Positions 3,799 through 22,792 of a stretch of 64,000 nucleotides of DNA are shown here, one piece after another; the stretch's first letter is position 1; the number at the start of each line of letters is the position of its first letter. The stretch comes from Candidatus Electrothrix communis (GTDB lineage Bacteria > Desulfobacterota > Desulfobulbia > Desulfobulbales > Desulfobulbaceae), in contig CP130629.1 of NCBI GenBank assembly GCA_030644725.1, positions 2,086,795 to 2,150,794 of the forward strand, in the 5' to 3' direction. Made by a program: the position numbers and the translations under genes. The notes below the pieces were generated by a model. It ran no database searches, was not told the DNA's origin, and saw only the letters and a list, made by a program, of their open reading frames with translations.

Positions 3799-5073
3799 TT
3801 ACCCACACCCGGTCCCAGTACCCAAGCATTCACCCTTGGATGAACATTTATGCATCCGTCCTTGGAGCGCGGACAGGCCCTTACCCGTATAGACCGCATC
3901 AAGCCCTTTTTCAATAAATCCAGATACCAAAACCGGTTTCAAGCCCCGTTTACTCAACGCCTCTTTGGGACCGTCACCAATATCATTGACCAAGATGGCC
4001 TGACAATCGCTCAAAATCCGGCTGATGTTCAGCCAACGCTGGGTACCGCCGCCCGCCGGAGGAGCCTGCCGCTCTTCAATCAGGGCGTAGCCGCCCTGAG
4101 CATCCTTGCCCCATACCTGAAATTTGGCAGCCTCGCCGAGATGCTGGTTCACCAAAACCCCCTCCAAGGTGGCCACAGCCACGTAGGGCCGTTTGGCCTC
4201 GGCATGTTTGGGCAACTTGGAACAGGCGCTCAGGCAACCGCGCATTTCATCGGTTTTATCATCATCCAGCAGACCGACCGCATCGGCCCGGCAACGGGTG
4301 CAATGACGCATCTGCGGCAGGTGTTTTTCCGCCTCGTTGCGAGTTTTCATCATGGTCTTTTTTGATGGTTCCGGTACATTTTCAAACACCGTGTCCGCAT
4401 TGGGAAACATGGCCATGCAGTTGAACAGATCCGCACCAAGTCTTTTCATGGCCTTGGCAACGTCGATGATATGATGATTATTAATGCCTGGAATCAGAAT
4501 AGTGTTGATCTTGACCGTAATGCCATACTGCTTCAATTTTTCAATGGAGCTGAGCTGGCGAGCCAGCAATAATTCCGCTGCCTGAAGCCCTCGATAGATG
4601 ACCTTACCATCCCGAACCCAAGAATAAATATTTTTGGTAATTTCTGGATCTACCCCGTTGACGGTGACGGTCACATGGGAGACGCCAATTTCAGCCAGTT
4701 CCTCCACATGGGGAGCCATATTCATACCGTTGGATGCCAGACAGAGAATGGTGTCAGGATAGTTTTTTCGAATCAGACGCATGGTCTCCAGGGTTTCCTC
4801 GGCATTGGCAAAGGGATCGCCTGGCCCGGCGATTCCGGCCACGGAGATACGCGGCTCTTTTTCCAGCACCTTACTCATATAGTACAGGGCCTGATCCGGC
4901 CTAAGCAGGGTGCTGGTCACACCGGGGCGTGACTCATTGACGCAGTCGTACTTCCGGTTGCAGTAGTTGCACTGGATATTGCATTTCGGAGCCACCGGAA
5001 GGTGAACCCTGCCGTACTGTCCCTTGACCTTGGCGTTGAAACATGGATGACGGTTAAAATCTATATTGTTCAT
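3799..5073 (-). CDS. nifB: Nitrogenase cofactor biosynthesis radical-SAM protein NifB
   Basis: 424 aa. It makes NifB-co, the [8Fe-9S-C] precursor of FeMo-co. The N-terminal HPCF motif and the radical-SAM CX3CX2C (CNIQCNYC) are present, as are AGPGDPFAN, the IPGINNHHI segment and the C-rich HCTRCRADAVG motif. A C-terminal NifX/NafY-like cofactor-binding domain (about 300-400, with VNQHLGEAAKFQVWG) is fused, followed by a Cys-rich tail. The start MNNIDFN was chosen for the ggagc site just upstream. It is third gene of nifE-nifN-nifB, 69 bases after nifN. A paralogue lacking the cluster cysteines is at 19752. Confidence 0.98.
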   Translation of the reverse strand: MNNIDFNRHPCFNAKVKGQYGRVHLPVAPKCNIQCNYCNRKYDCVNESRPGVTSTLLRPDQALYYMSKVLEKEPRISVAGIAGPGDPFANAEETLETMRLIRKNYPDTILCLASNGMNMAPHVEELAEIGVSHVTVTVNGVDPEITKNIYSWVRDGKVIYRGLQAAELLLARQLSSIEKLKQYGITVKINTILIPGINNHHIIDVAKAMKRLGADLFNCMAMFPNADTVFENVPEPSKKTMMKTRNEAEKHLPQMRHCTRCRADAVGLLDDDKTDEMRGCLSACSKLPKHAEAKRPYVAVATLEGVLVNQHLGEAAKFQVWGKDAQGGYALIEERQAPPAGGGTQRWLNISRILSDCQAILVNDIGDGPKEALSKRGLKPVLVSGFIEKGLDAVYTGKGLSALQGRMHKCSSKGECLGTGTGCG

Positions 5074-5142
5074 ACTTTGCTCCTTCATTTTAAAAGATGA
5101 GTGATGAGAAGTGGTCAGGGAGCACCGCCCCCGCACTCGAAA

Positions 5143-6504
5143 TTACATGTAAGAATACCCCACATCGGAATCAGCCTGTTTCTTGGCAATGAACGCATTG
5201 GCCACTTGATCAAACAACTGCTGCGCCCCGCTGTAGCCAAGGTGGAGAATGCGCTGTCCGCCCACCCGGTCGTGAACCGGAAAGCCCACCCGGATCAAGG
5301 GGATGTTGAGTTTACGGGCCAGGGGATACCCCTTGGAATGCCCGATCAGCAGGTCCGGCCCCAAAGTCTCTGCAACTTCAGCGATATCAAAAAAATCCAC
5401 CCCTTCATAGATAGCAGGCTGTCCAGAAAGCATATCGCCGGTCACCTCGGCAATAGCCTCAGCCAGCCGTCCTGATGTACCGCCAGAAGCACAGATGATC
5501 GGAAAAACACCTATCTCCGCCAGGAAAGCGGTCATGCCGACCACTAAATCTTCTTCGCCGCAAATAATAGCCTTTTTACCGAACAGGTATTTATGACCGT
5601 CCACGTAGGCATCCACCAAACGGCCTCGTTCCTTGGCGTATTTTTCCGGCATCGGACGACCGCTCAAAGTGGAGAGCAGCTCAAAAAATCGGTCGGTTTC
5701 CTCAATGCCGATGGGTATACCGAGACGATGGTTGTTGATGCTGAATTTCTTCTGGAGACTCAATCCGCCGCTCTCTTCACCGCTCAGAGTGCGCCCGAAT
5801 TCAATGGTGGCCTTGCTTCGGCCCATAGCCCCGATTGCCGCCAACGGGGTGCCGCCTGACTGAATTTTTTCATATTCAAGTAAAGCCTGACCATCCATGG
5901 TCTCGGAGAGGTCAGGGAGCATGGTGCTGTTCAGGCCAAAAGCCGCCATGATCTCCTTGAGCAGGCGATAATCCGCAGACGAAACAAAACCGGGCAGGAG
6001 ATTCACCGTTTCCGCCTGTGGCCCGCCCTCCGCCTTTTGACGAATCACTTCATGAATCGCTCCGTGGAATCCCTCCATGTGGGTTCCGGAATAACTGGGG
6101 GTCGAGACATTGACAAATTCTGGTAGCCCTTCTGACCCTTCTGTATCTCTTGCATATTCCTTTAGATACATAGGCACATCATCACCTATGGTTTCGGTGA
6201 GACAGGTGGTGGCGATGCCAATCATGGCGGGCCGGTATTTTTCCGCCACATTGGTCAGGCCCATCTTGAGGTTGGGGCCGCCGCCGTAGATGGCATTTTT
6301 TTCCGACAATGAGGACGAGGCGATGTCTATAGGTTCGTTATAATGACTGATGATGTAACGGCGCATGTAGGTGGCGCAGCCTTGGGAACCGTGCAGGTAG
6401 GGCACTGTGCCCTCAATGCCCTTGAAGGCTAAGCAGGCACCCAGCGGTTTACACAGCTTACAGGCGTTGGTGGTGGATATATAGTCAGGGTGTTTTTTGC
6501 TCAT
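5143..6504 (-). CDS. nifN: Nitrogenase cofactor scaffold subunit NifN
   Basis: 453 aa. With NifE it forms the NifEN scaffold that matures NifB-co to FeMo-co. It is homologous to NifK: CKLCKPLGACLAFKGI near the N-terminus, YLHGSQGCATYMRRYI, and CLTETIGDDVPMYL carry the family cysteines. It starts at ATG 6504 with an aaggag site, 12 bases after nifE, so the two are translationally close. It is complete, with no oddities. Confidence 0.97.
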   Translation of the reverse strand: MSKKHPDYISTTNACKLCKPLGACLAFKGIEGTVPYLHGSQGCATYMRRYIISHYNEPIDIASSSLSEKNAIYGGGPNLKMGLTNVAEKYRPAMIGIATTCLTETIGDDVPMYLKEYARDTEGSEGLPEFVNVSTPSYSGTHMEGFHGAIHEVIRQKAEGGPQAETVNLLPGFVSSADYRLLKEIMAAFGLNSTMLPDLSETMDGQALLEYEKIQSGGTPLAAIGAMGRSKATIEFGRTLSGEESGGLSLQKKFSINNHRLGIPIGIEETDRFFELLSTLSGRPMPEKYAKERGRLVDAYVDGHKYLFGKKAIICGEEDLVVGMTAFLAEIGVFPIICASGGTSGRLAEAIAEVTGDMLSGQPAIYEGVDFFDIAEVAETLGPDLLIGHSKGYPLARKLNIPLIRVGFPVHDRVGGQRILHLGYSGAQQLFDQVANAFIAKKQADSDVGYSYM

Positions 6505-6516
6505 AATAGCTACTCC

Positions 6517-7887
6517 TTACTTTTCCTGATTCCTCGGTACAAAGCGCCAAACCGGACTCATCACCGAGGAATACACCTCCTGGGCAAAGTTGAGCATTCC
6601 TTCAAACCCGGCAAGAGCCTCTTTGCGCTCATGGTTGTGGTCACAAAAACCGATGCCTAATTTATAGGCAATAGGCCGTTCCTTAACCCCGCCGACAAAA
6701 ATATCCACACCCTTTTCCGTAAGAAAAGAATTCAGCTCCAGCGGGTTGGCATCATCAATAATAATCGTGCCCGGATCAGTGATCGCCTCCAGTTCCCGGT
6801 AATCCTCTTCCGTGCCAGTCTGGGAACCGACCATAACCACCTCCATATCCACAAGCCGGAAAGCCTTAACCAAAGAAAACGCCTTAAAAGACCCTCCCAC
6901 ATAGATGGCTGCCTTCTTTCCAGCCAAGGCCTTACGATATTTCTCCAATTTCGGCACCAGTTCCCGCACCTTCTCCTGCACCAGGGCCTTTGTCCGCTCC
7001 ATGATCCGATCCGCCTCAGGATCATCCGGGTATTTCTGCTGAAAAAAACGGGCGATATCGTAGAGGGCCTCGGACATATCTTCAATGCCGAAATAGGAAA
7101 CCCGTAGGGAAGGCACCCCGTATTCCTCTTCCATCATGTTGGCCAACTGCATGGTGGAACCGGAACACTGCACCACGTTCAGCCCGGCTCCGTGGGCTTT
7201 GCGGATGTCATCCACCCGACCGTCACCGGTGATATTGGCCACCACCTCGATACCCATCTTTTCATAATATTCACGAATCATCCAGATCTCGCCAGCCAGA
7301 TTAAAGTCACCAAGAATATTAAGAGAATATTTGGAAATACCGACGGTGTCGCCTGTGCCGATCAGGCGGAACATGGCATCACAGGCCGCTTGATATCCGG
7401 CTCGCTTATTCCCCTTAAACCCTTCCGACTGCACTGGAATCACAGAAATACCGGTTTCCTCTGTAACCTTGTTGCAAACCGCCTCTAGGTCATCACCGAT
7501 GATCCCGACAATGCAGGTCGAATAAACAAAGGCGGCCTTGGGGCTGTGGCGTTCAATAAGTTCTAGCAAGGCCCGGCGGAGCTTTTTTTCTCCACCAAAG
7601 ATGACATCCATTTCTTGGAGATCGGTGGAAAAGGAGAGGCGATGCAGTTCCGGGCCAGAGGACAGCGCACCTCGGATATCCCAGGTATAGACCGCACAAC
7701 CGATGGGGCCGTGGACGAGGTGGAGGGCATCGGCAATGGGATAGAGCACTACCCGTGAGCCACAAAATACACAGGCCCGTTGGCTGACCGCTCCGGCCAG
7801 GCTGTCTTTGTTGCAGACAATATTAAAAGGGGCCTCCCCCTTAACGTGGATCTGGTTCTCCCGATCTTTTAAGGCGACTGCTTCCAT
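6517..7887 (-). CDS. nifE: Nitrogenase cofactor scaffold subunit NifE
   Basis: 456 aa. It is the alpha-like subunit of the NifEN assembly scaffold. It shows CVFCGSRVVLYPIADALHLV and HGPIGCAVYTWD near the N-terminus, FSTDLQEMDVIFGGEKKL, STCIVGIIGDDLEAV and a NifD-like C-terminal half. It is first gene of nifE-nifN-nifB, with a gaggag ribosome site. The upstream 120 bases hold a strong sigma-54 promoter and a NifA-type site, so it should be expressed under nitrogen limitation. Confidence 0.97.
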   Translation of the reverse strand: MEAVALKDRENQIHVKGEAPFNIVCNKDSLAGAVSQRACVFCGSRVVLYPIADALHLVHGPIGCAVYTWDIRGALSSGPELHRLSFSTDLQEMDVIFGGEKKLRRALLELIERHSPKAAFVYSTCIVGIIGDDLEAVCNKVTEETGISVIPVQSEGFKGNKRAGYQAACDAMFRLIGTGDTVGISKYSLNILGDFNLAGEIWMIREYYEKMGIEVVANITGDGRVDDIRKAHGAGLNVVQCSGSTMQLANMMEEEYGVPSLRVSYFGIEDMSEALYDIARFFQQKYPDDPEADRIMERTKALVQEKVRELVPKLEKYRKALAGKKAAIYVGGSFKAFSLVKAFRLVDMEVVMVGSQTGTEEDYRELEAITDPGTIIIDDANPLELNSFLTEKGVDIFVGGVKERPIAYKLGIGFCDHNHERKEALAGFEGMLNFAQEVYSSVMSPVWRFVPRNQEK

Positions 7888-7938: not shown

Positions 7939-7954
7939 TGCAACAGCTGTGCCA
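7939..7954 (-). promoter_or_regulatory. Sigma-54 promoter of nifENB
   Basis: On the minus strand: TGGCAC-AGCTG-TTGCA, a perfect -24/-12 match. The start site is expected near 7928, about 40 bases before the nifE ATG. Confidence 0.9.
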
Positions 7955-11698: not shown

Positions 11699-12403
11699 TT
11701 AAAGAACCTCAATTACGCTAATTTGACATTCTTCTGACATTCTTCTGATATATTCATCAAGATCGTTAAGAAAATATTTGATCGTCTCAAGGCACCATTC
11801 AGCAAGTTTTGCATTTATTATTCGATGCGGAATATCAAATTTTCCTTTTCCATCTCCATAAAATGGACTTGGTGTTATTTTTAAATTTTTATCGAAAAAA
11901 TTTAGCAATTTTCTCATTTTCTCTATAGGTTCAACGGGTAAATAATCGGTATCAGCGTAATTGTTTTTATAAAAACGTGCATTGTAATGAACCAGTTGAT
12001 TTCGTAATTCTATTATTTTCCCTATGTTATCTAACTGCGTTTTCTTTTGATCATTGTTATTGTCTTTTTTTAGCAATTCTATCAGTAAGATATATTTACC
12101 TACAACGCCTTTATACTTGTCTTCTTTGTCAAGGTTGTTATCTTTTAAGTATTTATAGATATTAGCACAAGTCGGGACATGAGAATAAAGATGTGATACC
12201 CATTCAAATTGTTCATTTATGTTAGCCTCAAGTGCTGCAACTGATGAGATTATTGCGCTGGTTGAATACGCAATATAATTTTCTTCTTTATTATAATTAT
12301 CTGAATCAACTTCTATTGCTAAAGCATTTGTTATAGCAAGTTCAGATGCTTTGATGTGAATCCTGCTTAACGGGTACAGTTCAAGCGCATAAAATTTCAT
12401 CAT
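11699..12403 (-). CDS. Hypothetical protein with HEPN-like R-x4-H motif
   Basis: 234 aa, mostly helical. I do not recognise a named family, but IIELRNQLVHYNARF carries the RN-x3-H pattern used as the catalytic site in HEPN ribonucleases. An N-terminal segment (AYSTSAIISSVAALEANINEQFEW) resembles the helix often seen before it in such proteins. It is AT-rich compared with nif genes and lies between two copies of a repeat, directly downstream of the Shedu gene on the same strand. It may be a defence or toxin partner or a passenger gene; that role is inference from context. Confidence 0.6.
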   Translation of the reverse strand: MMKFYALELYPLSRIHIKASELAITNALAIEVDSDNYNKEENYIAYSTSAIISSVAALEANINEQFEWVSHLYSHVPTCANIYKYLKDNNLDKEDKYKGVVGKYILLIELLKKDNNNDQKKTQLDNIGKIIELRNQLVHYNARFYKNNYADTDYLPVEPIEKMRKLLNFFDKNLKITPSPFYGDGKGKFDIPHRIINAKLAEWCLETIKYFLNDLDEYIRRMSEECQISVIEVL

Positions 12404-12541: not shown

Positions 12542-13951
12542 TTATTCAACTTCGTTCGTGGAAAGGAGGACGTGTAATAACTTTAACTTTTCTAACAATT
12601 CATCAAATGTAATTATTTCAACATTTCTCGAATTTTTCCGGAAAATCTCAAATGATTTTTGTTTTTCCCAATCATCCGGCATTTTCCCAATGACAAGGGC
12701 GCAATGAACAGCATATGTCTCGATATCAGATATGCGAGATTCTTCTTTGAGCGAAGCTATACTTTTTTGCAGTTTGTATTTTTGATCTAATACTTGGTTA
12801 AGTGACCCGGACAATGCTACAGATGGTGAATAAACATTCTCTCGATATTTTTTTCCAATAAGTGCTTCCTGTGGCGTTTTAATTTCAATAATAGCTGTAT
12901 TGTTGGTCAGTAAGTTTTTGGACAGAAAATCAGCTATTTTGTCGCCAGACCCTGAAAACTTCAAGCCTCCTACAGATGCTTGGTCTTGCACCTTGATAAC
13001 TGGGCAACCGAAAATCATGCTAAGTATGAATGGATTCTCATTAAAAAGATCTTGCCAATGTTTCTCACCGAGTTGTTTTTTTAACTTTTCCTGGTACTTT
13101 TCGATTAAAATTTCAAGACTGCACAGTTCAACATCTTTTTTTATCTTAAAGATTTCATTTTTATACTTACTGTATATTTCATGTTTTTTTGATGTCTCTA
13201 TATCTGAAATAGAATTAAAGGCAATATCGTATCTATATTTATATATTTTCTTCCTGTACATAGATGGATTAAATTTATGTAGAAGATTGTTGAATGTGAA
13301 AATATCTTTTTGTTTCGATCCTTCTTTTTTCTGCAAGTCTTCAATTCGATTAAGACCTCTTCTTAGCTGTTCAAAATCTTCAAAATTAATACAATAAGCT
13401 CTATCTTCTTCTCTAAATCCTGTTTTGCAGACTTTACTAATTGAAAGTATTCTGATGTGTTGTGTTTCCTCTACTGTCTTTATGATAAACCTATATCTCT
13501 GCAAAAGGCCAATACCAAATAAAAGATTTCTGCTGAATCCTTCTGGAAGGATATTGAAAATATTTAATAAATCATCTGGCGTATTTGGATATGTAAAACC
13601 AAATCCTTCCAAATGTATCTCTTCTATCTTGTTGTATTTATTTTTTAAATAATTTCTTCCTGATGTAATAATCAAAGGATATATACAAACTACATCACAT
13701 CCTCCGATATGTTCATTGCAACCAATAACATCATCATAAAAATGTAGCAATTTATAGCTATGCGACAAGGCATACTTTTGTTCTTCATTTGAAAGAGCAG
13801 AGGTGTCGATCTCTTCCTGAAAAGGTCTATATTCAATAACCACTTCCTCTCCTTCATCTCGAAAGGTAGTATCTTTATTGCGAGTAATAGAGACAGAACC
13901 GTTAGTAAGAGTTTTATACAGATCGTCATTTTCTGAGCCTATATTCCTCAT
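12542..13951 (-). CDS. sduA: Shedu anti-phage nuclease (SduA, DUF4263)
   Basis: 469 aa. The C-terminal half (about 280-440) has the Shedu/DUF4263 pattern: HWQDLFNENPFILSMIFG, then GDKIADFL, AIIEIKTPQEALIG (the PD-(D/E)XK-like D...E-x-K core), and YSPSVALSGSLNQVLDQ. Shedu is a known single-gene phage defence system whose protein is a nuclease. The N-terminal part is variable in the family and may sense the trigger; here it has no recognised domain. The start ATG 13951 has only a weak upstream purine stretch (tgaggaattat). The gene is AT-rich and sits in a small island between nifV and nifH. Confidence 0.85.
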   Translation of the reverse strand: MRNIGSENDDLYKTLTNGSVSITRNKDTTFRDEGEEVVIEYRPFQEEIDTSALSNEEQKYALSHSYKLLHFYDDVIGCNEHIGGCDVVCIYPLIITSGRNYLKNKYNKIEEIHLEGFGFTYPNTPDDLLNIFNILPEGFSRNLLFGIGLLQRYRFIIKTVEETQHIRILSISKVCKTGFREEDRAYCINFEDFEQLRRGLNRIEDLQKKEGSKQKDIFTFNNLLHKFNPSMYRKKIYKYRYDIAFNSISDIETSKKHEIYSKYKNEIFKIKKDVELCSLEILIEKYQEKLKKQLGEKHWQDLFNENPFILSMIFGCPVIKVQDQASVGGLKFSGSGDKIADFLSKNLLTNNTAIIEIKTPQEALIGKKYRENVYSPSVALSGSLNQVLDQKYKLQKSIASLKEESRISDIETYAVHCALVIGKMPDDWEKQKSFEIFRKNSRNVEIITFDELLEKLKLLHVLLSTNEVE

Positions 13952-14352: not shown

Positions 14353-15312
<960 letters not shown>

Positions 15313-15486: not shown

Positions 15487-15831
15487 ATGTTAATGATCAG
15501 AGCTATAGTAAGGCCGGAGAAATCCGATGAAATTCTTGCTGCCCTCATGGATGCAGGCTTTCCAGCGGTCACCAAATATTCCGTTGCCGGGCGTGGTAAA
15601 CAACGCGGTATCAAAATTGGTGATGTTACCTATGATGAGATTCCGAAAACGATGCTTATGTCCGTGGTTCGGGATGAAGATAAAGATTTTGTTATCCAGA
15701 CCATCATGGATACCGCAAGGACTTCCGAGAAAGGCGCTTTTGGTGACGGTAAGATTTTTGTCAGCGAGGTTGAAGAGCTCTATACCATCAGCTCCGGCCT
15801 GAAGGAAGGCGTTGCCGAGGAGGCTGCATAA
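15487..15831 (+). CDS. nifI1: P-II-like nitrogenase regulator NifI1
   Basis: 114 aa. With NifI2 it forms the complex that blocks NifDK when 2-oxoglutarate is low (known from methanogens). It starts MLMIRAIVRPEKSDEILAAL after aaggag. The T-loop region differs from GlnK (RGIKIGDVTYDEIPKTMLMS) and has no tyrosine at the GlnK uridylylation position, a hallmark of NifI1. The end is KGAFGDGKIFVSEVEELYTI. Its stop overlaps the nifI2 start by one base (TAATG), so the two are translationally coupled. Confidence 0.96.
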   Translation: MLMIRAIVRPEKSDEILAALMDAGFPAVTKYSVAGRGKQRGIKIGDVTYDEIPKTMLMSVVRDEDKDFVIQTIMDTARTSEKGAFGDGKIFVSEVEELYTISSGLKEGVAEEAA

Positions 15832-16205
15832 TGAAGGAAGTCATCGCTGTGGTACGCATCAACATGATGAACCAGACCAAGCAGGCCTTAAGCGATGCCG
15901 GGGTTGACGCCTATTTCGCCCGAGAGGCTCAGGGGCGGGGCAAAGGTTTCGCCAATCCCAAGGTGCTTGAAGGGGTTGATGAGGGATACGAGGAAGCGGC
16001 TGCCGTGTTGGGAGAGAAGGGAAAACTCTATCCCAAGCGAGTGCTAACCGTGGTGGTTGAGGACGATAAGGTCGACGATGTTGTGCAGGCCATTATCGCG
16101 CCCAACAAGACCGGCAAGCCGGGCGACGGAAAGATATTTATCCTGCCTGTGGCTGATTCGGTTCGGGTTCGGACCGGGGAATCGGGCGAAGAAGCTATCG
16201 TCTGA
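15831..16205 (+). CDS. nifI2: P-II-like nitrogenase regulator NifI2
   Basis: 124 aa. It is the partner of NifI1 in post-translational nitrogenase switch-off. MKEVIAVVRINMMNQTKQAL opens the domain, a longer T-loop-like insert (REAQGRGKGFANPKVLEGVD) follows, and GKPGDGKIFILPVADSVRVR closes the P-II signature. The start overlaps the nifI1 stop. Presence of nifI1-nifI2 between nifH and nifD is typical of nif operons of anaerobes (methanogens, sulfate reducers, clostridia). Confidence 0.96.
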   Translation: MKEVIAVVRINMMNQTKQALSDAGVDAYFAREAQGRGKGFANPKVLEGVDEGYEEAAAVLGEKGKLYPKRVLTVVVEDDKVDDVVQAIIAPNKTGKPGDGKIFILPVADSVRVRTGESGEEAIV

Positions 16206-16234: not shown

Positions 16235-17878
16235 ATGGGAGCGGCAGAAAAACTGGTGCAGTGGAATCCCACCGATATTAAGGCGGAATTGATTAAAAAG
16301 TATCCGCCCAAGGTGGCCCGTAAACGCGCCAAACAGATAATGATTAACGAGGCCTTGGAGAACGGCACGCCGGAAATTACGGCCAATGTTCGTACCATCC
16401 CAGGCATCATCACCATGCGCGGTTGTACCTACGCCGGTTGTAAGGGCGTTATCATGGGACCGACCCGCGATATCGTCAACCTGGTCCACGGACCCATCGG
16501 ATGTAGCTTTTACGCCTGGTTGACCCGACGTAATCAGACCGATGCTGGCCCGGAAGGACCGGCCGGTGAAAATTTCATGAACTACTGTTTTTCCACCGAT
16601 ATGCAGGATCAGGATATCATCTTCGGCGGAGAGAAAAAACTGGAGCAGGCCATTCAGGAAGCCTATGACCTGTTTCATCCCAAGTCCATTGCAGTGTTTG
16701 CCACCTGTCCGGTGGGTCTGATCGGAGATGATATTCACACCATTTCCCGGCAGATGAAAGAAAAGCTGGGCGACTGTAATGTGTACGCTTTTAGCTGTGA
16801 GGGCTATAAGGGTGTTTCCCAGTCCGCTGGTCATCATATTGCCAATAATCAGGTGTTCCGTCATATCGTGGGCGAGAACGACGAGCCGGTTGAGGGCAAA
16901 TACAAGATCAACCTGCTAGGCGAGTACAACATCGGCGGCGACGGGTTCGAGATAGATCGGATTTTTAAGAAATGCGGGATCACTAATGTCTCCACCTTTT
17001 CCGGCAACTCCACCTATGAGCAGTTTGCCACAGCCCATCAGGCCGATCTGAATGCGGTTATGTGTCACCGGTCCATTAACTATGTGGCTGATATGCTGGA
17101 GACCAAGTTCGGTATCCCCTGGATCAAGGTGAACTTTATCGGTGCCGAGGCAACCGCTAAATCTCTGCGCAAGATAGCTGCCTATTTTGAGGATCAGGAG
17201 CTGATCGACACAGTAGAAGCGGTGATTGCCGAGGAAATGCCGGATGTTGATGCAGCTGCAACCGAAATTCTGCCCCGTACCGGCGGCAAAACAGCCATGA
17301 TGTTTGTGGGTGGCTCCAGAGCCCATCATTATAAGGAGTTGTTTGACGAGTTGGGGATGAAGACCATCTCTGCTGGTTACGAGTTTGGTCATCGTGATGA
17401 TTACGAGGGCCGTCGGGTTCTGCCGCACATTAAGGTGGATGCGGACAGTCGGAATATCGAGGAAATCGTGGTCGAAGCCGACGAAACCCGCTTTAGCCCT
17501 CGCAAGAGTGAAGAAGAGCTGAAGGCGTTGGAAGAAGGCGGTCTTAAATTCAAGGATTACGAAGGATTGGCCCCAGACTTAGAAGAGGGTACCTTGATCA
17601 TCGACGACCTGAACCAGTACGAGGCTGAGAAGCTGGTCGAGCTGATGAAGCCGGACATTTTCTGTGCAGGTATCAAAGAGAAGTTCTCCATCCAGAAACT
17701 GGGCGTGCCCATGAAGCAGCTGCACAGCTATGACTCCGGCGGCCCCTATGCCGGATTCAAAGGCGCGATTAACTTCTACAAAGAGATTGATCGTCTGGTG
17801 AACAGCAGGGTCTGGAGTTATATGAAGGCCCCCTGGCAGGAAAACCCGCAGCTTTCCGGCACATACGTCTGGGAATAA
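16235..17878 (+). CDS. nifD: Nitrogenase MoFe protein alpha chain NifD
   Basis: 547 aa, longer than the roughly 480-500 aa proteobacterial type. P-cluster cysteines fit C64, C90 and C118 (HGPIGCSFYAW and YCFSTDMQDQDIIFGG). The FeMo-co ligands are C277 (VMCHRSINYV) and H497 (QLHSYDSGGPYAGF). The VSQSAGHHIAN segment near the cofactor and the IKEKF lysine for homocitrate are kept. An extra segment of about 55 residues (about 394-450, with many Glu and Lys) sits between the YEFGHRDDYEG and TLIIDDLNQYE motifs, as in clostridial-type NifD. No delta-subunit gene is nearby, so this is Mo rather than V or Fe-only. Confidence 0.98.
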   Translation: MGAAEKLVQWNPTDIKAELIKKYPPKVARKRAKQIMINEALENGTPEITANVRTIPGIITMRGCTYAGCKGVIMGPTRDIVNLVHGPIGCSFYAWLTRRNQTDAGPEGPAGENFMNYCFSTDMQDQDIIFGGEKKLEQAIQEAYDLFHPKSIAVFATCPVGLIGDDIHTISRQMKEKLGDCNVYAFSCEGYKGVSQSAGHHIANNQVFRHIVGENDEPVEGKYKINLLGEYNIGGDGFEIDRIFKKCGITNVSTFSGNSTYEQFATAHQADLNAVMCHRSINYVADMLETKFGIPWIKVNFIGAEATAKSLRKIAAYFEDQELIDTVEAVIAEEMPDVDAAATEILPRTGGKTAMMFVGGSRAHHYKELFDELGMKTISAGYEFGHRDDYEGRRVLPHIKVDADSRNIEEIVVEADETRFSPRKSEEELKALEEGGLKFKDYEGLAPDLEEGTLIIDDLNQYEAEKLVELMKPDIFCAGIKEKFSIQKLGVPMKQLHSYDSGGPYAGFKGAINFYKEIDRLVNSRVWSYMKAPWQENPQLSGTYVWE

Positions 17879-17884
17879 ACGGTC

Positions 17885-17962
17885 GTAGGGGCACGGCACG
17901 CCGTGCCCCTACACACCCATGTGCAGAAAAAACCGTAAGGGCACGGCATGCCGTGTCCCTAC
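17885..17962. repeat. Two REP palindromes in the nifD-nifK gap
   Basis: 17885-17912 (gtaggggcacggcacg ... cccctac) and 17935-17962 (gtaagggcacggcatg ... tccctac), both 28-base near-perfect palindromes with a GTAG or GTAA head. They lie between two genes whose products are needed in equal amounts. Confidence 0.8.
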
Positions 17963-17983
17963 ATCAGAATACGAGGTAAGAGG

Positions 17984-19357
17984 ATGTTATTACGACATAC
18001 CCCCAAAGAAATCAGCGAGCGCAAGGCCCTGACCATTAATCCGGCCAAGACCTGCCAGCCCATTGGTGCTATGTACGCGGCTCTGGGCATCCACGGATGC
18101 CTGCCGCACAGTCACGGCTCCCAGGGCTGCTGCGCCTATCACCGTTCAACCCTGACCCGGCATTATAAAGAGCCAATCTCGGCGGCGACCAGCTCCTTTA
18201 CTGAAGGCGCGTCCGTGTTCGGCGGTCAGGCTAACCTGACCCAGGCCTTTAACAATATCTTCACGGTCTACAACCCGGAAATCGTGGCAGTGCATACCAC
18301 CTGCCTGTCCGAGACCATTGGCGATGATTTGCCCCAGATTCGCAAAAAAGCGATTACGGAAGGCAAGATCCCGGAAGGAAAATACGTTATCGGCGCGTCC
18401 ACGCCCAGCTATGTTGGTTCCCATGTGACCGGGTTCTCCAATATGGTTAAGGCCATGACCGAGCTGGCCGAGCCCACAGGTAAGAAGAACGGCAAGGTCA
18501 ATATCATCCCTGGCTGGGTGGAACCCTGCGACATGGAGGAGCTGAAGCGGCTCACCAAGTTAATGGGTGTGGGCACGATCCTTTTTCCAGACACCTCTGG
18601 TGTGCTCAACAGCCCGCTGACCGGCGAATACAAGATGTTTCCCGCAGGCGGCACTACCATTGCCGAGCTGAAGTCCACCGCCGATTCAATGGGTACGCTG
18701 GCTTTGGGCGAGTGGTGTTCTGCTGATGCGGCCCGCCAGCTGGATAAACAGCACAAGGTTCCCTGCAAGGTTCTGGATATGCCTTTCGGTTTGAAGGCCA
18801 CGGATCGTTTCATTGAAGCCCTGCGCACCATTGCCGGGGTCAACGTGCCCGAGGAAATTATGACCGAGCGCGGTCAGCTGGTGGATTTGATCTCGGACAT
18901 GCACCAGTATTTCTATCATAAGAAAGTGGCCCTGGCAGGCGACCCGGATCAGCTCATCGCCATGACCGAGTTCCTGATTTCCATCGACATGTGTCCGGTC
19001 CACATTGTTACCGGTACTCCGGGTAAGAAGTTCGAGAAGCGGATCAGGGAGATCACAGCGGACATGCCTTTCGAGGTCAACGTCAAGGCCAAGGGCGATT
19101 TCTTTCTCCTCCATCAGTGGATGAAGAACGAGCCGGTGGACCTGCTGATCAGCAACACTTACGGCAAGTATATCGCCCGTGATGAGGATGTGCCGCTGAT
19201 CCGCTGGGGCTTCCCTATCCTGGATCGTCAGGGGCATCAGTATTTTCCCACAGTTGGGTATAAGGGTGGGTTGCGGCTGCTGGAGAAGATCCTCTCCGCT
19301 ATCATGGATCGCAAGGATCGGGATGATCCTGAGACCAAGTTTGAGTTGGTGCTGTAA
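17984..19357 (+). CDS. nifK: Nitrogenase MoFe protein beta chain NifK
   Basis: 457 aa, the short form that lacks the long N-terminal extension of proteobacterial NifK and goes with the long NifD. P-cluster cysteines lie in TCQPIGAMYAALGIHGCLP, HGSQGCCAYHRSTL and CLSETIGDDLPQI. STPSYVGSHVTGFSNM and WGFPILDRQGHQYFPTVGYKG are conserved. The start was set at ATG 17984 after gaggtaagagg; the longer upstream frame runs through a REP element. It is last gene of the nifH operon, followed by a terminator. Confidence 0.98.
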   Translation: MLLRHTPKEISERKALTINPAKTCQPIGAMYAALGIHGCLPHSHGSQGCCAYHRSTLTRHYKEPISAATSSFTEGASVFGGQANLTQAFNNIFTVYNPEIVAVHTTCLSETIGDDLPQIRKKAITEGKIPEGKYVIGASTPSYVGSHVTGFSNMVKAMTELAEPTGKKNGKVNIIPGWVEPCDMEELKRLTKLMGVGTILFPDTSGVLNSPLTGEYKMFPAGGTTIAELKSTADSMGTLALGEWCSADAARQLDKQHKVPCKVLDMPFGLKATDRFIEALRTIAGVNVPEEIMTERGQLVDLISDMHQYFYHKKVALAGDPDQLIAMTEFLISIDMCPVHIVTGTPGKKFEKRIREITADMPFEVNVKAKGDFFLLHQWMKNEPVDLLISNTYGKYIARDEDVPLIRWGFPILDRQGHQYFPTVGYKGGLRLLEKILSAIMDRKDRDDPETKFELVL

Positions 19358-19553: not shown

Positions 19554-19673
19554 CTCAATGTCATATTTTCTTCAAAAGCGTCTTGCCTGTAACGAAATGC
19601 TTCTTTAAAGCCCTCCTTGTAAACCACCATTAATATCTTGTTTTTGAAGTACATTTACCTTTACTCCGCCCCT

Positions 19674-19689
19674 GGTACGCTCTTTGCTT
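19674..19689 (+). promoter_or_regulatory. Sigma-54 promoter of the nifB-like operon
   Basis: TGGTAC-GCTCT-TTGCT keeps GG-N10-GC. The start site is expected near 19700, about 50 bases before the ATG at 19752. A TGT-N9-ACA at 19640-19654 is one base short of the NifA consensus and too close to count. Confidence 0.8.
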
Positions 19690-19751: not shown

Positions 19752-20897
19752 ATGACTATCCAGCCTGTTACCCCCAAGAACCCCTGCGAACAATCCATGC
19801 GGATCAAATCCCTGATTCTGCCAGCTGCCCCGCAGGCCAATAACAAAAAACGTTTTGGCGAGATCGACAAACCCGATCCAGCTCTTTTGCCGGATGAAGC
19901 TATCGCCTGGATAGGTGACCTTGTAAAAGGCGGTAAGAAAATTCACGGAGTGAATATCTCCGGCCCTGGTGATGCCCTAGCAGACCAGAATACGCTTTTT
20001 TTCCTTCTCGATTTGCTCAAGGAAAAATATCCCGACTGCCCGGTCAAACTGACCACCATAGGTCTCAACGCAGCATCACTTGCTGCTGATCTGGCCAGCA
20101 AGGGGATTACCCAGGTTAACCTCCAAGTCGAAGCAGCGTCCACAGACATTGTAAAAAAAATATACGCCTGGATTCGCCCCGACAAAAGAACGGTACCGCT
20201 TCCTGAAGCGATAGAATTCCTGTTCCAAGAGCAAGGAAAGGCAATCGTCGCACTCAAAGACTCCGGAATTTCAGTTAATATACAGACCACAATCTATCCC
20301 GGTATAAACGACGAGCATATAGCTCCTCTTGCTGAAAAAGCTGTCTCCTGGGGCGCATCATCCATAGCCCTGCTTCCTTTTCAGCCGGTTTCTGAGGAAG
20401 AAACATTAGAAGCCTGTGACGCTGATCTGCTTGAGAACGCAAAAAAAGCCGCTGCGGCCCATCTTGAAGTTATTGATGATAAGGACGTATATCTGCCGCC
20501 CCCGTCAGGCGGAGATTTTCAGAATGCAACGACCCTCCTGCCCAAACCGAGCAAGGAGCGCCCGAACGTGGGCGTGGTCAGCGCAAGCGGCATGGATGTG
20601 GATCTCCATCTCGGCCAAGCCGACAGGGTGTTGATCTACGGCCCTCGTGAGGACGGGCTGGCCTGTCTTCTGGAATCACGAACCGCACCTGAGGCAGGAA
20701 GCGGCGATTCCCGCTGGCAAGCACTTGCCGACAAATGCCTGTTTGACTGCTTTGCCCTGCTGGCAACCAATGCCGGGCAAAATCCGCAAAAGGTTCTGGG
20801 CGATATGGGTATCAAGGTATTGCTGACCGAAGAGAATATCGAAGGCACCGTTGATGTGCTCTACGGTGGCGGCAAAAAAAAGAAATGTAAAAAATAA
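19752..20897 (+). CDS. NifB-like protein lacking radical-SAM cysteines, with NifX-like domain
   Basis: 381 aa. It aligns along its length with the NifB at 3799: LPAAP (LPVAP in NifB), SGPGDALAD (AGPGDPFAN), DIVKKIYAWIR (EITKNIYSWVR), and GISVNIQTTIYPGIND (GITVKINTILIPGINN). The CX3CX2C motif is replaced by QANNKKRF and the HCTRCRADA motif is gone; only a Cys in NPC near the N-terminus remains where NifB has HPCF. It cannot bind the SAM cluster in the known way. The C-terminal domain (about 270-370, DVDLHLGQADRVLIYG) is like NifX/NafY cofactor carriers. It is first gene of a sigma-54 operon with nif-linked small genes. A carrier or scaffold role for NifB-co is my inference. The Lys-rich tail (KKKKCKK) is odd. 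Confidence 0.85.
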   Translation: MTIQPVTPKNPCEQSMRIKSLILPAAPQANNKKRFGEIDKPDPALLPDEAIAWIGDLVKGGKKIHGVNISGPGDALADQNTLFFLLDLLKEKYPDCPVKLTTIGLNAASLAADLASKGITQVNLQVEAASTDIVKKIYAWIRPDKRTVPLPEAIEFLFQEQGKAIVALKDSGISVNIQTTIYPGINDEHIAPLAEKAVSWGASSIALLPFQPVSEEETLEACDADLLENAKKAAAAHLEVIDDKDVYLPPPSGGDFQNATTLLPKPSKERPNVGVVSASGMDVDLHLGQADRVLIYGPREDGLACLLESRTAPEAGSGDSRWQALADKCLFDCFALLATNAGQNPQKVLGDMGIKVLLTEENIEGTVDVLYGGGKKKKCKK

Positions 20898-20955: not shown

Positions 20956-21261
20956 ATGGCAATTTCAGAACGGCAGATCCTGCTCTGTCAGAGCTTTCGC
21001 GCGGCAGGAGATAAAAAAGGTATCTGTCATAAGCAGAGCGAAGGATTACTGCAATATATTGAGGAAGAAGTACTGGATCGCGGCCTGGACTGTCTGATAA
21101 GCGGCACCACCTGCCTGAAACAATGCGAAAAGGGACCGGTTATGGTCATTCAACCGGAAAATTGGTGGTTCGGCAGCGTGGACAGCGAAGAGGCGGTTGA
21201 TGCTATCCTGGACGGGCTGGAAGACGGCGAACCGGCAGAAGATTATCTGCTGGAAAGCTGA
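20956..21261 (+). CDS. Thioredoxin-like [2Fe-2S] ferredoxin (nif-linked)
   Basis: 101 aa. Cysteines are spaced C-x12-C (LLCQSFRAAGDKKGICHK) and C-x3-C (TTCLKQCEKG), the pattern of thioredoxin-like [2Fe-2S] ferredoxins, the fold that includes the Azotobacter Shethna-type proteins. It probably delivers electrons to, or protects, nitrogenase assembly; the precise partner is unknown. The start is MAISERQILL after aaaggagc. It lies 58 bases after the NifB-like gene, with a small hairpin (CTCGG-aagg-CCGAG, 20925-20938) in the gap. Confidence 0.88.
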   Translation: MAISERQILLCQSFRAAGDKKGICHKQSEGLLQYIEEEVLDRGLDCLISGTTCLKQCEKGPVMVIQPENWWFGSVDSEEAVDAILDGLEDGEPAEDYLLES

Positions 21262-21273
21262 GAGAACAGACCC

Positions 21274-21750
21274 ATGAGCGGGATAATGCCGAACATTGCC
21301 GGAAAAATACTGATCCGAGGGGCACGGGAAGAGGATCTCACGGGCCTGGTCTTTCTGCTGGAAGTTTTGTTCAGCATTGAAAAGGATTTTACTTTCAATG
21401 CGGACAAGCAGCAGCGAGGGTTACGACTGCTTGTACAGAGGCCTGACGCTGCGGTTCTGGTGGCGGAACGACAGGGTCGGATCATAGGCATGTGTACAGC
21501 GCAACTGCTCATTTCCACCGCTGAAGGCGGATTATCGACCCTGGTGGAAGATGTCGTGATCCTGCCCGCCTGGCAGGCACATGGCACCGGCAAAAGACTC
21601 ATGGAGGCTGTCGCGGAATGGTCTGCGTTTCAGGGCGCAACCAGGATCCAATTACTGGCTGATCGCAATAATACAAGGGCACTGGGCTTTTATAATCGGA
21701 TAGGCTACCGACCCACTGAACTGATCTGTCTACGCAAGGGAGCTGGGTAA
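21274..21750 (+). CDS. GNAT-family N-acetyltransferase (nif-linked)
   Basis: 158 aa. The GNAT fold is shown by VEDVVILPAWQAHGTGKRLM (acetyl-CoA-binding V-x-x-x-x-R/Q-x-x-G-x-G/A type, here QAHGTG), with IQLLADRNNTRALGFYNRIGYR at the end. The substrate is unknown. It sits 12 bases after the ferredoxin gene and overlaps the next gene by one base (TAATG), so it is part of the nif operon. I recall similar GNAT genes in other deltaproteobacterial nif clusters but cannot name a demonstrated role. Confidence 0.85.
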   Translation: MSGIMPNIAGKILIRGAREEDLTGLVFLLEVLFSIEKDFTFNADKQQRGLRLLVQRPDAAVLVAERQGRIIGMCTAQLLISTAEGGLSTLVEDVVILPAWQAHGTGKRLMEAVAEWSAFQGATRIQLLADRNNTRALGFYNRIGYRPTELICLRKGAG

Positions 21751-22184
21751 TGACAAAAAAAGCGGAGTTAATCCCCTTAGCGGGAATTGAACCCATCAGG
21801 GGCTGGGAAGAATTTCTTCAGGATGGAAAAGGATTTCTGAGCACGGCTTTAGCAGGGTATCAGAAGCGGCAGCAGGTCTTCACTGCTGAGATCCTTTATA
21901 ATATTATAGCTATGGCCGTAGAGAAATTCATCATGGCAGCGCTGATGCGACATGGAGCCTTGCCCTATAACCATACTATGGCGGATCTGGTCGAGGCGAT
22001 GGAAACCACCTTTCCGGGCAAAATGACAGCGATCGGTGCAGGATTACTGGAGATGGATAAGTATCAGGAGATATGCGATCTTGACGGGTTTAAAATCAGC
22101 CCGCCGGGCATGGAGAAAATTTCAGGGATGCTTGGACTGGCTGACAAGATACAGACCTTGGTAATTGAAGAACTTACGTGCTGA
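21750..22184 (+). CDS. HEPN-like helical protein (nif-linked), unknown
   Basis: 144 aa. The segment AEILYNIIAMAVEKFIMAAL followed by MRHGALPYNHTMADLV has the shape of a HEPN domain (paired helices with His near the end), though the R-x4-6-H ribonuclease motif is not clean. The start ATG overlaps the stop of the GNAT gene, which implies coupled translation. Its place in an operon of nif assembly genes suggests a helper or binding role rather than toxicity; this is inference. Confidence 0.6.
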   Translation: MTKKAELIPLAGIEPIRGWEEFLQDGKGFLSTALAGYQKRQQVFTAEILYNIIAMAVEKFIMAALMRHGALPYNHTMADLVEAMETTFPGKMTAIGAGLLEMDKYQEICDLDGFKISPPGMEKISGMLGLADKIQTLVIEELTC

Positions 22185-22206
22185 ATATATGAAGGAGCAC
22201 TGTGGA

Positions 22207-22518
22207 ATGAGTGAAAAAATACCAATAATGAAGCTTGGCGTTGTCAAGGAAATCGTAGAAGCAACCGGCATGGGGATTTCCTATGCCTATGAAGACCTTG
22301 TTTTTCTCGATCATAACGCCCTGCTCCTCCAATTCACCCAAGACAGTGACACGGTTCTGGTGCATACCAACCGCGAGGCGGACACGGAACCGGCTCAGGC
22401 AACTCTTGCAGCCTTGAAACAGGCTGCCCGGGAAAGAGAAATGATCTTCCTTGACGGTCAGGTATACGCCTTGACGCAAGGAGAGGACGAACAGATCAAT
22501 ATTGAATTTATCCCGTAG
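22207..22518 (+). CDS. Conserved nif-linked protein of unknown function
   Basis: 103 aa starting MSEKIPIMKLGVVKEIVEAT, with ISYAYEDLVFLDHNALLLQF and a mixed alpha-beta pattern. No cofactor motif is seen (no conserved Cys or His cluster). I have an impression that similar small proteins sit beside the thioredoxin-like ferredoxin in other Desulfobacterota nif clusters but cannot give a name. The start was placed at ATG 22207 with aaggag 11 bases upstream; an earlier in-frame start overlaps the preceding gene. Confidence 0.65.
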   Translation: MSEKIPIMKLGVVKEIVEATGMGISYAYEDLVFLDHNALLLQFTQDSDTVLVHTNREADTEPAQATLAALKQAAREREMIFLDGQVYALTQGEDEQINIEFIP

Positions 22519-22570: not shown

Positions 22571-22792
22571 ATGGCTAAAAAAGACGTTGAAGCATTGTTG
22601 ATTGCAGGTGGCGAAGACAAACATGTTCGGGCAAAATATGATGTTCCGGGCAATAAAGAAGAATTTATCGCCTTAGCAGCGGAAGATGGTTATACATTTA
22701 CGCTGGAAGAGCTTGACGAGGTGCTCAAGGAGGCCGGGGACGTGTTTGACAAATACGGCAACCCACCCAAGCGCTCTATCTGGTGGACCTGA
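22571..22792 (+). CDS. Nif11-family small protein
   Basis: 73 aa. It has the Nif11 domain pattern: KEEFIALAAEDGYTFTLEEL then EVLKEAGDVFDKYG. The family is named for nif clusters and is also used as leader peptides in other systems, but here it is likely the nif-associated form, as no peptide-modifying enzyme is near. A very good ribosome site (aaggaaggagg) precedes it. It is the last gene of the operon started at 19674, followed by the first of three similar terminators. Confidence 0.85.
   Translation: MAKKDVEALLIAGGEDKHVRAKYDVPGNKEEFIALAAEDGYTFTLEELDEVLKEAGDVFDKYGNPPKRSIWWT

Follow-up and report, generated by a model that had tools for sequence, protein, structure and literature searches.

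Cable bacteria and related sulfate reducers carry, beside their nitrogenase genes, a NifB-derived pseudoenzyme that we did not find described before and that is probably a chaperone for nitrogenase cofactor. We have named it psB. The window analyzed, a stretch of 64,000 nucleotides from Candidatus Electrothrix communis, belongs to a genome of one contig (4.85 Mb) whose nearest named relatives are the cable bacteria Candidatus Electrothrix and Electronema. Its psB gene is an intact ORF of 381 codons, encoding a dead radical-SAM barrel followed by a NifX-like C-terminal domain. The evidence supports a pseudoenzyme under selection, placed in the nif regulon and having a NifX-like domain that retains the cofactor-ligand histidine. 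Judged by sequence, the status of psB as a pseudoenzyme is secure.

Table 1. Features of psB and of the surrounding nif region (window positions)
Feature	Position	Strand	Basis or remark
psB	19752..20897	+	381 aa; ORF, homology, family alignments, structure model
Lost CX3CX2C site, residues 23-34, LPAAPQANNKKR	19818..19853	+	family consensus LPVAPRANxRxRF
GPGD, residues 71-74, NifB remnant	19962..19973	+	G71 in 100, P72 in 102, G73 in 102, D74 in 96 of 103
YAWIRP, residues 138-143, constrained barrel motif	20163..20180	+	family alignment
NifX-like domain, residues 270-373	20559..20870	+	Pfam, profile search, domain model
His286 codon, invariant	20607..20609	+	102/102 reaching the position; aligns with NifX His35
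Cys333 codon, invariant	20748..20750	+	102/102; DC motif common with the NifX-like domain of NifB
Basic C-terminal tail, GKKKKCKK in the window	20871..20894	+	at least 4 K/R in the last ten residues in 90/103
Sigma-54-type promoter site TGGTACGCTCTTTGCT	19673..19688	+	no mismatch
nifH	14356..15312	+	ORF as listed, internal Met present; synteny
nifI1, PII-like	15487..15831	+	position, synteny
nifI2, PII-like	15831..16205	+	position, synteny
nifD	16235..17878	+	TIGR01282 663.8 bits at the matching place in G000
nifK, gene before psB	17948..19357	+	synteny
[2Fe-2S] ferredoxin, gene after psB	20956..21261	+	NF041612 55.5 bits, below cut-off; synteny
GNAT acetyltransferase, conserved neighbour	21274..21750	+	Pfam, synteny
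orf144, conserved neighbour	21750..22184	+	no Pfam match; synteny
orf117, neighbour	22165..22518	+	Pfam search, synteny
Nif11-domain protein	22571..22792	+	Pfam
Canonical NifB	3799..5136	-	all ten ligand positions examined present
nifN-like	5143..6504	-	Pfam, NCBIfam
nifE	6517..7887	-	621.6 bits, above cut-off

Comparison of psB with the NifB encoded in the same window revealed 29% identity over 391 columns (BLASTP, 156 bits, E 7e-48). With the NCBIfam nifB model (TIGR01290), psB scored 100.3 bits against a cut-off of 343.65, whereas the true NifB of the window scored 394 bits. Pfam matches were obtained to Radical_SAM (29.6 bits, cut-off 29.5) and to Nitro_FeMo-Co (PF02579; 26.1 bits, cut-off 26.3), the latter being 0.2 bits below the gathering score in the protein search and above the cut-off in the genome search. 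The NifB segment LPVAPKCNIQCNYC is replaced in psB by LPAAPQANNKKRFG, and the CVNESRP stretch of NifB is missing, as is HCTRCRADA, whose absence had been predicted and was confirmed by this comparison.

The original prediction, made from the letters of the window alone, was of a NifB paralogue that had lost its radical-SAM ligands, and it proposed a search for homologues missing the same motif. That search yielded 103 distinct psB proteins, the window's included (L105 lacks the N-terminus and L009 the C-terminus), which were aligned with 40 distinct NifB from the fetched loci; proteins of these loci were assigned to psB or NifB by the higher BLAST score. The loss proved to be family-wide: CX3CX2C occurs in 0 of 103 psB (the region is present in 102) and in 40 of 40 NifB. 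At the three successive radical-SAM cysteine positions, psB has mostly Ala at the first (86 of 103) and Ile or Leu at the second (71 of 103), the third being Ala in 43, Gly in 16, and Cys in 15 of 103; 87 of 102 retain none of these cysteines, 15 retain one, and 0 retain two. A motif masked by misalignment was ruled out, because no C...C..C is found anywhere in the 103 proteins and the replacing segment is itself conserved.

Ten positions were scored in all, comprising one further conserved cysteine and nine NifB ligands, which were placed by motif and spacing according to assignments reported for M. acetivorans NifB (PMC6053413, PMC7145814). Among 102 psB, 52 retain none of the ten, 36 one, eight two, one three, and five four. 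The cysteine of CVNESRP falls in a gap in 103 of 103. From the NifB motifs listed as HPC, ExRP, and CX2CRxDAxG (PMC5715403), the last is gone from psB, and the position of the HPC cysteine is still occupied by Cys in 28 of 103. The five proteins keeping four positions (L084, L091, L096, L103, and L127) are from Desulfovibrionaceae, Desulfovibrio or Pseudodesulfovibrio by title. They retain the HPC cysteine, the VHLP histidine, and the LCL cysteine, which are three of the four K1-type ligands, and one K2-type position besides, with all radical-SAM cysteines lost. Their sequences resemble a NifB from which the SAM site has been removed, and they may represent an intermediate stage or harbor a residual cluster site.

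These five members, together with the retained GPGD, would agree with a barrel that still holds a metal cluster or ligand (for example a K1-like cluster in the Desulfovibrionaceae, or SAM bound with no cluster present) and carries out other chemistry. We consider this very unlikely, given the 52 members devoid of every Fe-S-type position scored, a maximum of four such positions and one radical-SAM cysteine in any member, and a barrel whose conservation falls below that of the NifX-like domain. Even so, the barrel is itself constrained: W140, R142, Q161, and N186 are found in 103 of 103 psB, the Trp and Arg of YAWIRP being present in 37 and 31 of 40 NifB.

The gene had further been predicted to be full length and not decaying, which held true. 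Whole-gene dN/dS was 0.10-0.16 in five of six same-genus pairs and 0.20 in the sixth. The individual values were 0.111 (window-G003), 0.156 (window-G004), 0.134 (G003-G004), 0.098 and 0.110 (window-G007 and window-G001, dS near saturation), and 0.201 (G005-G007, few changes). Purifying selection is strongest on the NifX-like domain, for which dN/dS compared to that of the barrel was 0.060 versus 0.119 (window-G003), 0.069 versus 0.159 (window-G004), 0.021 versus 0.178 (G003-G004), 0.062 versus 0.366 (G005-G007), 0.102 versus 0.119 (window-G001), and 0.112 versus 0.071 (window-G007, dS saturated). Values for such short segments are noisy, as illustrated by 2.2 for the N-terminus in G003-G004, 0.37 for the barrel in G005-G007, and the reversal in window-G007. 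Confinement to one genome with high dN/dS, named beforehand as grounds for refutation, was tested and is not the case. Family-wide conservation, synteny, and purifying selection place psB beyond chance, and the invariant residues in 103 members and low dN/dS rule out a decaying copy. A vestigial duplicate heading for loss would explain why psB is absent from some nifD genomes, yet it is already contradicted by the dN/dS of five of the six pairs, by 103 distinct members having invariant residues, and by the way psB and its neighboring ferredoxin gene have stayed together, under a sigma-54 site of their own, where they are separated from nifDK; we give it almost no credence.

The strongest evidence as to the working part of psB came from 34 genomes that supplied nearly complete sequences of both psB and NifB; some of these genomes are closely related, and the 34 pairs are therefore not independent. 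Mean pairwise identity of psB was 0.407 in the barrel and 0.618 in the NifX-like domain, compared to 0.665 and 0.592 for NifB. By per-genome means, the NifX-like domain was the better conserved part of psB in 34 of 34 genomes and of NifB in 0 of 34. This inversion of conservation indicates that the NifX-like domain is the working part of psB.

A PF02579 match was obtained with 60 of the 60 family members searched (E up to 0.01); TIGR02663, the NifX equivalog, was not among the matches of the window's psB up to E 0.1. A profile of the C-terminal part of psB matched the NafY core (1p90, E 4.7e-5) and A. vinelandii NifX (9ian, E 0.0015), and by residue count in the profile alignment, His286 falls on NifX residue 35. 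In the cryo-EM structure of NifENX, NifX His35 is described as the apical ligand of NifB-co (PMC13128457). The histidine is kept in 39 of 40 NifB as well. The invariant His and Cys, one of each, are more in keeping with a carrier that offers a single apical ligand than with a new Fe-S site.

An AlphaFold2 model of psB, made with 60 family members in the alignment, had a mean pLDDT of 90.9. Its best structural match was apo-NifB (7jma, Foldseek E 8.3e-19, TM 0.92 by target), which VIA superposed with Z 27.8 and rmsd 1.9 over 213 residues, the first non-NifB entry having Z 19.5. Neither NifX nor NafY was found among the best 50 whole-model VIA matches listed, because barrels fill the list, and the NifX-like domain was therefore modelled alone (pLDDT 84.0). 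The top two Foldseek matches of the lone domain were NifX (9ian_F, E 3.2e-5) and NafY (1p90, E 6.2e-5), and, along with the profile matches, these bear out the predicted NifX/NafY-like C-terminal domain.

Descent from NifB was examined in a tree of 55 of the 103 psB and 36 of the 40 NifB, thinned by hand and built by a quick method with SH-aLRT as its only support; among its rows, two were flagged as long and two as odd in composition. A single branch (SH-aLRT 100, length 1.14) sets off all psB, and one origin therefore suffices. The Desulfovibrionaceae-type psB branch closest to NifB. Two peptide patterns, run against 84,980 species genomes, gave 125 stretches encoding a relative. The titles of the best 80 of 125, which were kept, were Desulfobulbales-type, Desulfovibrionales-type, or generic delta-/proteobacterial, with one 'Desulfobacteraceae' and one 'Bacterium'; judged from these best 80 of 125 stretches, psB is likely, though not certainly, confined to Desulfobacterota. 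In one Desulfocapsa MAG (NORP205), 361-aa psB copies that differ at 6 positions are found on two contigs (L081 and L087).

Occurrence was then counted in 159 genomes of the order, each at least 90% complete, with nifD called at E below 1e-180 and psB by a gap in E-values (psB 3.6e-92 or better, NifB 2.4e-81 or weaker); the psB counts rest on score, the motif having been read in part of the counted genomes. By this measure psB is present in 105 genomes and nifD in 111. psB was called in 102 of the 111 nifD genomes as opposed to 3 of the 48 without nifD, these being G362, G401, and G430, all drafts; 9 of the 111 nifD genomes lack psB by score. In a phylum sample of 297 genomes, psB was called by score in 10, all having nifD over cut-off, as 60 genomes do. 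TIGR02663 was over cut-off in 0 of these 10 versus 14 of the 297, a weak contrast. No psB is found on the nif plasmid of N. vulgaris DP4 (plasmid only), where the sole psB-like place is a NifB with CX3CX2C, and D. vulgaris Hildenborough is reported to fix N2 (PMC10102598). Because psB-less nifD genomes and such a plasmid exist and Hildenborough fixes N2, psB is not universally needed. RB-TnSeq of D. vulgaris, which concerns strain Hildenborough, accordingly gives no information on psB.

The gene order around psB links it to nifK and to a [2Fe-2S] ferredoxin gene (fdx). Outside the cable bacteria, nifK lies directly upstream in 89 of 89 scorable members (match wholly within 2.2 kb, same strand, in members with at least 900 nt upstream), and fdx lies directly downstream in 100 of 100, cable bacteria included (within 0.9 kb, in members with at least 700 nt downstream). 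Of the 72 loci that extend 4 kb or more downstream, 65 have a GNAT gene after psB and 61 have orf144. orf144 is a conserved nif-linked family; it has no Pfam or NCBIfam match, and some of the genomes called psB-less carry it after nifK.

The psB-fdx-GNAT-orf144-orf117-Nif11 unit of cable bacteria mostly lies apart from nifHDK; in the window, psB starts 394 nt after nifK and has its own sigma-54-type site. This promoter, too, had been predicted. Such a site is located 73-95 nt upstream of psB in 11 of 11 cable-bacterial copies examined (10 assigned by genus, L060 by sequence likeness), and none of 15 non-cable copies examined has one within 100 nt, two having a weaker match farther upstream. 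A scan of the window gave 8 matches with at most one mismatch versus 3.95 expected, and 4 of 100 shuffles reached 8. Sites of this type also stand ahead of nifH (14378-14393, + strand, one mismatch) and nifE (7939-7954, - strand, none). Between nifV and nifH are a Shedu-type gene (SduA_C, 86.9 bits) and a gene for a weakly DUF3644/HEPN-like protein (12542-13951 and 11699-12403, both - strand).

We also inspected 20 empty slots, loci from nifD genomes called without psB, of which 18 were informative; L169 reaches a contig end, and L166 has no recognizable nif gene. The next gene after nifK was fdx in 10, a small ORF followed by nif11 and fdx in 1, orf144 in 2, and nifE in 5. No NifX-like gene was seen in these slots when ORF lists were read by eye, and the 11 loci taken from the phylum sample gave no TIGR02663 match at E 1e-12. 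On the DP4 plasmid, the order is nifH-I1-I2-D-K-fdx-E-N-B. From these orders we conclude that the operon is otherwise constant and that psB is accommodated at one place in it. The DP4 plasmid additionally bears a gene annotated as antiviral reverse transcriptase Drt2 after the NifB-type gene (L132 13886-15169).

The place of psB after nifK suggests action at the maturing NifDK, and gene order makes NifDK the likelier partner. Location directly after nifK would also suit an assembly chaperone or placeholder that binds no cofactor and holds apo-NifDK open, as suggested for NifY, with the conserved residues serving protein contacts. NifX-family proteins lacking the histidine do exist and are suggested to be placeholders or antagonists (PMC13128457), and some psB genomes hold other carriers. 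However, NifY and NafX are said to be without the cofactor-binding histidine (PMC13128457), whereas psB keeps it in 102 of 102, and we regard a placeholder as unlikely.

The original prediction had also raised regulation of NifB by heterodimerization. A psB that regulates or stabilizes NifB through such a heterodimer, or competes with NifB, would be in keeping with paralogy over almost the full length, and pseudoenzymes are known generally as partners of active enzymes. Nothing specific to NifB emerged, however, and the gene directly adjoins nifK and fdx. In a rate covariation across 18 genomes, which is a weak test, the largest partial correlations of the psB NifX-like domain were with NifN (0.42) and NifB (-0.47), and that of the barrel with NifB was 0.02, which does not favor NifB. 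Since M. acetivorans NifB is moreover described as a monomer (PMC7145814), we hold a role on NifB to be distinctly improbable.

The lack of a separate nifX or nafY noted for the window extends to the whole genome (G000), in which PF02579 is over cut-off at four places (NifB, psB, and two stand-alone proteins outside the nif region) and TIGR02663 has no match at E 1e-6. Replacement of a missing NifX by psB accordingly fits the window genome but is not general. In the 159 genomes of the order, TIGR02663 is over cut-off in 0 and matches at E up to 1e-6 in 33, 26 of these in a frame of less than 300 aa. By coordinates, 20 of the 26 small frames lie within 450 nt after nifB. psB accompanies the small frame in 20 of the 26 genomes; the other 6 lack psB, and 4 of them are among the 9 psB-less nifD genomes. 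At least 20 of 105 psB genomes thus hold, in addition, a small NifX-like ORF that scores under the TIGR02663 cut-off, and for this reason psB is not simply a NifX substitute.

Small NifX-like ORFs were read beside nifB in L049, L044, L149, L150, L151, and L142; the six translated have an EHFG/DHFG histidine in 6 of 6 and are about 110-125 aa in five of six. That these genes mostly adjoin nifB and psB adjoins nifK fits a division of labor. The small ORFs in psB genomes, and the NifX-like domain of NifB itself, mean that other carrier domains exist. The N-terminus of the window's NifE has one Cys (residue 25) before ACVFCGSR; A. vinelandii NifE is reported to bind NifB-co through C15 and C25 (PMC13128457).

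On balance, we favor psB as a nif-dedicated cofactor chaperone in which the dead barrel is a docking module. The gene arose by duplication of a two-domain NifB, occupies the slot between nifK and fdx in an operon that elsewhere reads nifHI1I2DK-fdx, and has shed its radical-SAM site along with most K1/K2 cluster sites. The NifX-like domain would probably bind NifB-co or FeMo-co via His286, as NifX does via His35, with the inert barrel and basic tail probably used for docking. In the manner of NafY or NifY, psB might then keep cofactor, or pass it on, at a NifDK that is still maturing. A carrier role was among the functions first proposed, and it is the best reading of a NifX-like domain whose invariant His286 aligns with NifX His35, but a retained histidine is no proof of binding, as this genome also encodes two stand-alone PF02579 proteins that have no nif linkage.

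A fuller scenario is offered tentatively, as we think it rather unlikely to hold in full: a radical-SAM enzyme turned into a metallocofactor shuttle, whose NifX-like domain takes NifB-co or FeMo-co and whose dead barrel docks on NifDK (or NifEN). It would constitute NafY-like delivery made out of NifB, with a NifX-like protein alongside in some genomes and none in others, this one included. The early-branching Desulfovibrionaceae forms, in which most K1-type ligands persist, would preserve the sequence in which sites were lost, with the SAM cluster and K2 going first and K1 last. A conserved NifB pseudoenzyme fixed beside nifK is a concrete candidate for the step that brings cofactor to NifDK in anaerobes with nifHI1I2DK operons, and whether psB is required would matter to anyone moving nif clusters out of sulfate reducers.

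Our search of the literature, seen partly in excerpts, found no prior description of a psB-type protein, in line with the prediction that the type is undescribed. Nor did we find a known family of assigned role to which psB would belong, the other ground for refutation named beforehand. The paper PMC5715403 we take to be that of Arragain et al. 2017. In the excerpts consulted, it contains the nearest printed statement, in which NifB-like sequences without CX3CX2C are taken as misannotated NifX; 28% of putative NifB sequences were set aside, most without CX3CX2C but with a NifX domain (PMC5715403). Similarity-based annotation can hide proteins such as psB.

Among known systems, two-domain bacterial NifB (TIGR01290) shares with psB the domain order, the barrel fold, and a NifX-like domain with HLG, RW, and DC motifs; psB differs in lacking CX3CX2C, the CVNESRP segment, and CX2CRxDAxG and in scoring far below the TIGR01290 cut-off. 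Paenibacillus NifB1-4 are likewise extra NifB-type genes in diazotrophs, with nifB3 and nifB4 reported to be dispensable and perhaps non-functional (PMC8287671). These copies are more than 57% similar to each other, and the two-domain copies, unlike psB, keep Cx3Cx2C and other motifs; the single-domain NifB3 of two strains is without Cx2CRxDAxG (PMC8287671).

NifX and NafY, PF02579 chaperones that work in FeMo-co assembly (PMC13128457), resemble psB in the predicted fold and ligand histidine of its C-terminal domain. NifX is described as a single globular domain with C-terminal helices (PMC13128457), to which psB adds a NifB-type barrel. NafY has a sterile-alpha-motif domain, according to a reference title in PMC13128457, whereas psB has the degenerate NifB barrel in front, its N-terminal part being modelled as a NifB-type barrel. 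NifY is reported to be without the histidine (PMC13128457) and in this is unlike psB. The small NifX-like ORFs of Desulfobulbales have, like psB, a NifX-type domain with an EHFG/DHFG histidine, and they share some genomes with it; unlike psB, they have no barrel and adjoin nifB instead of nifK.
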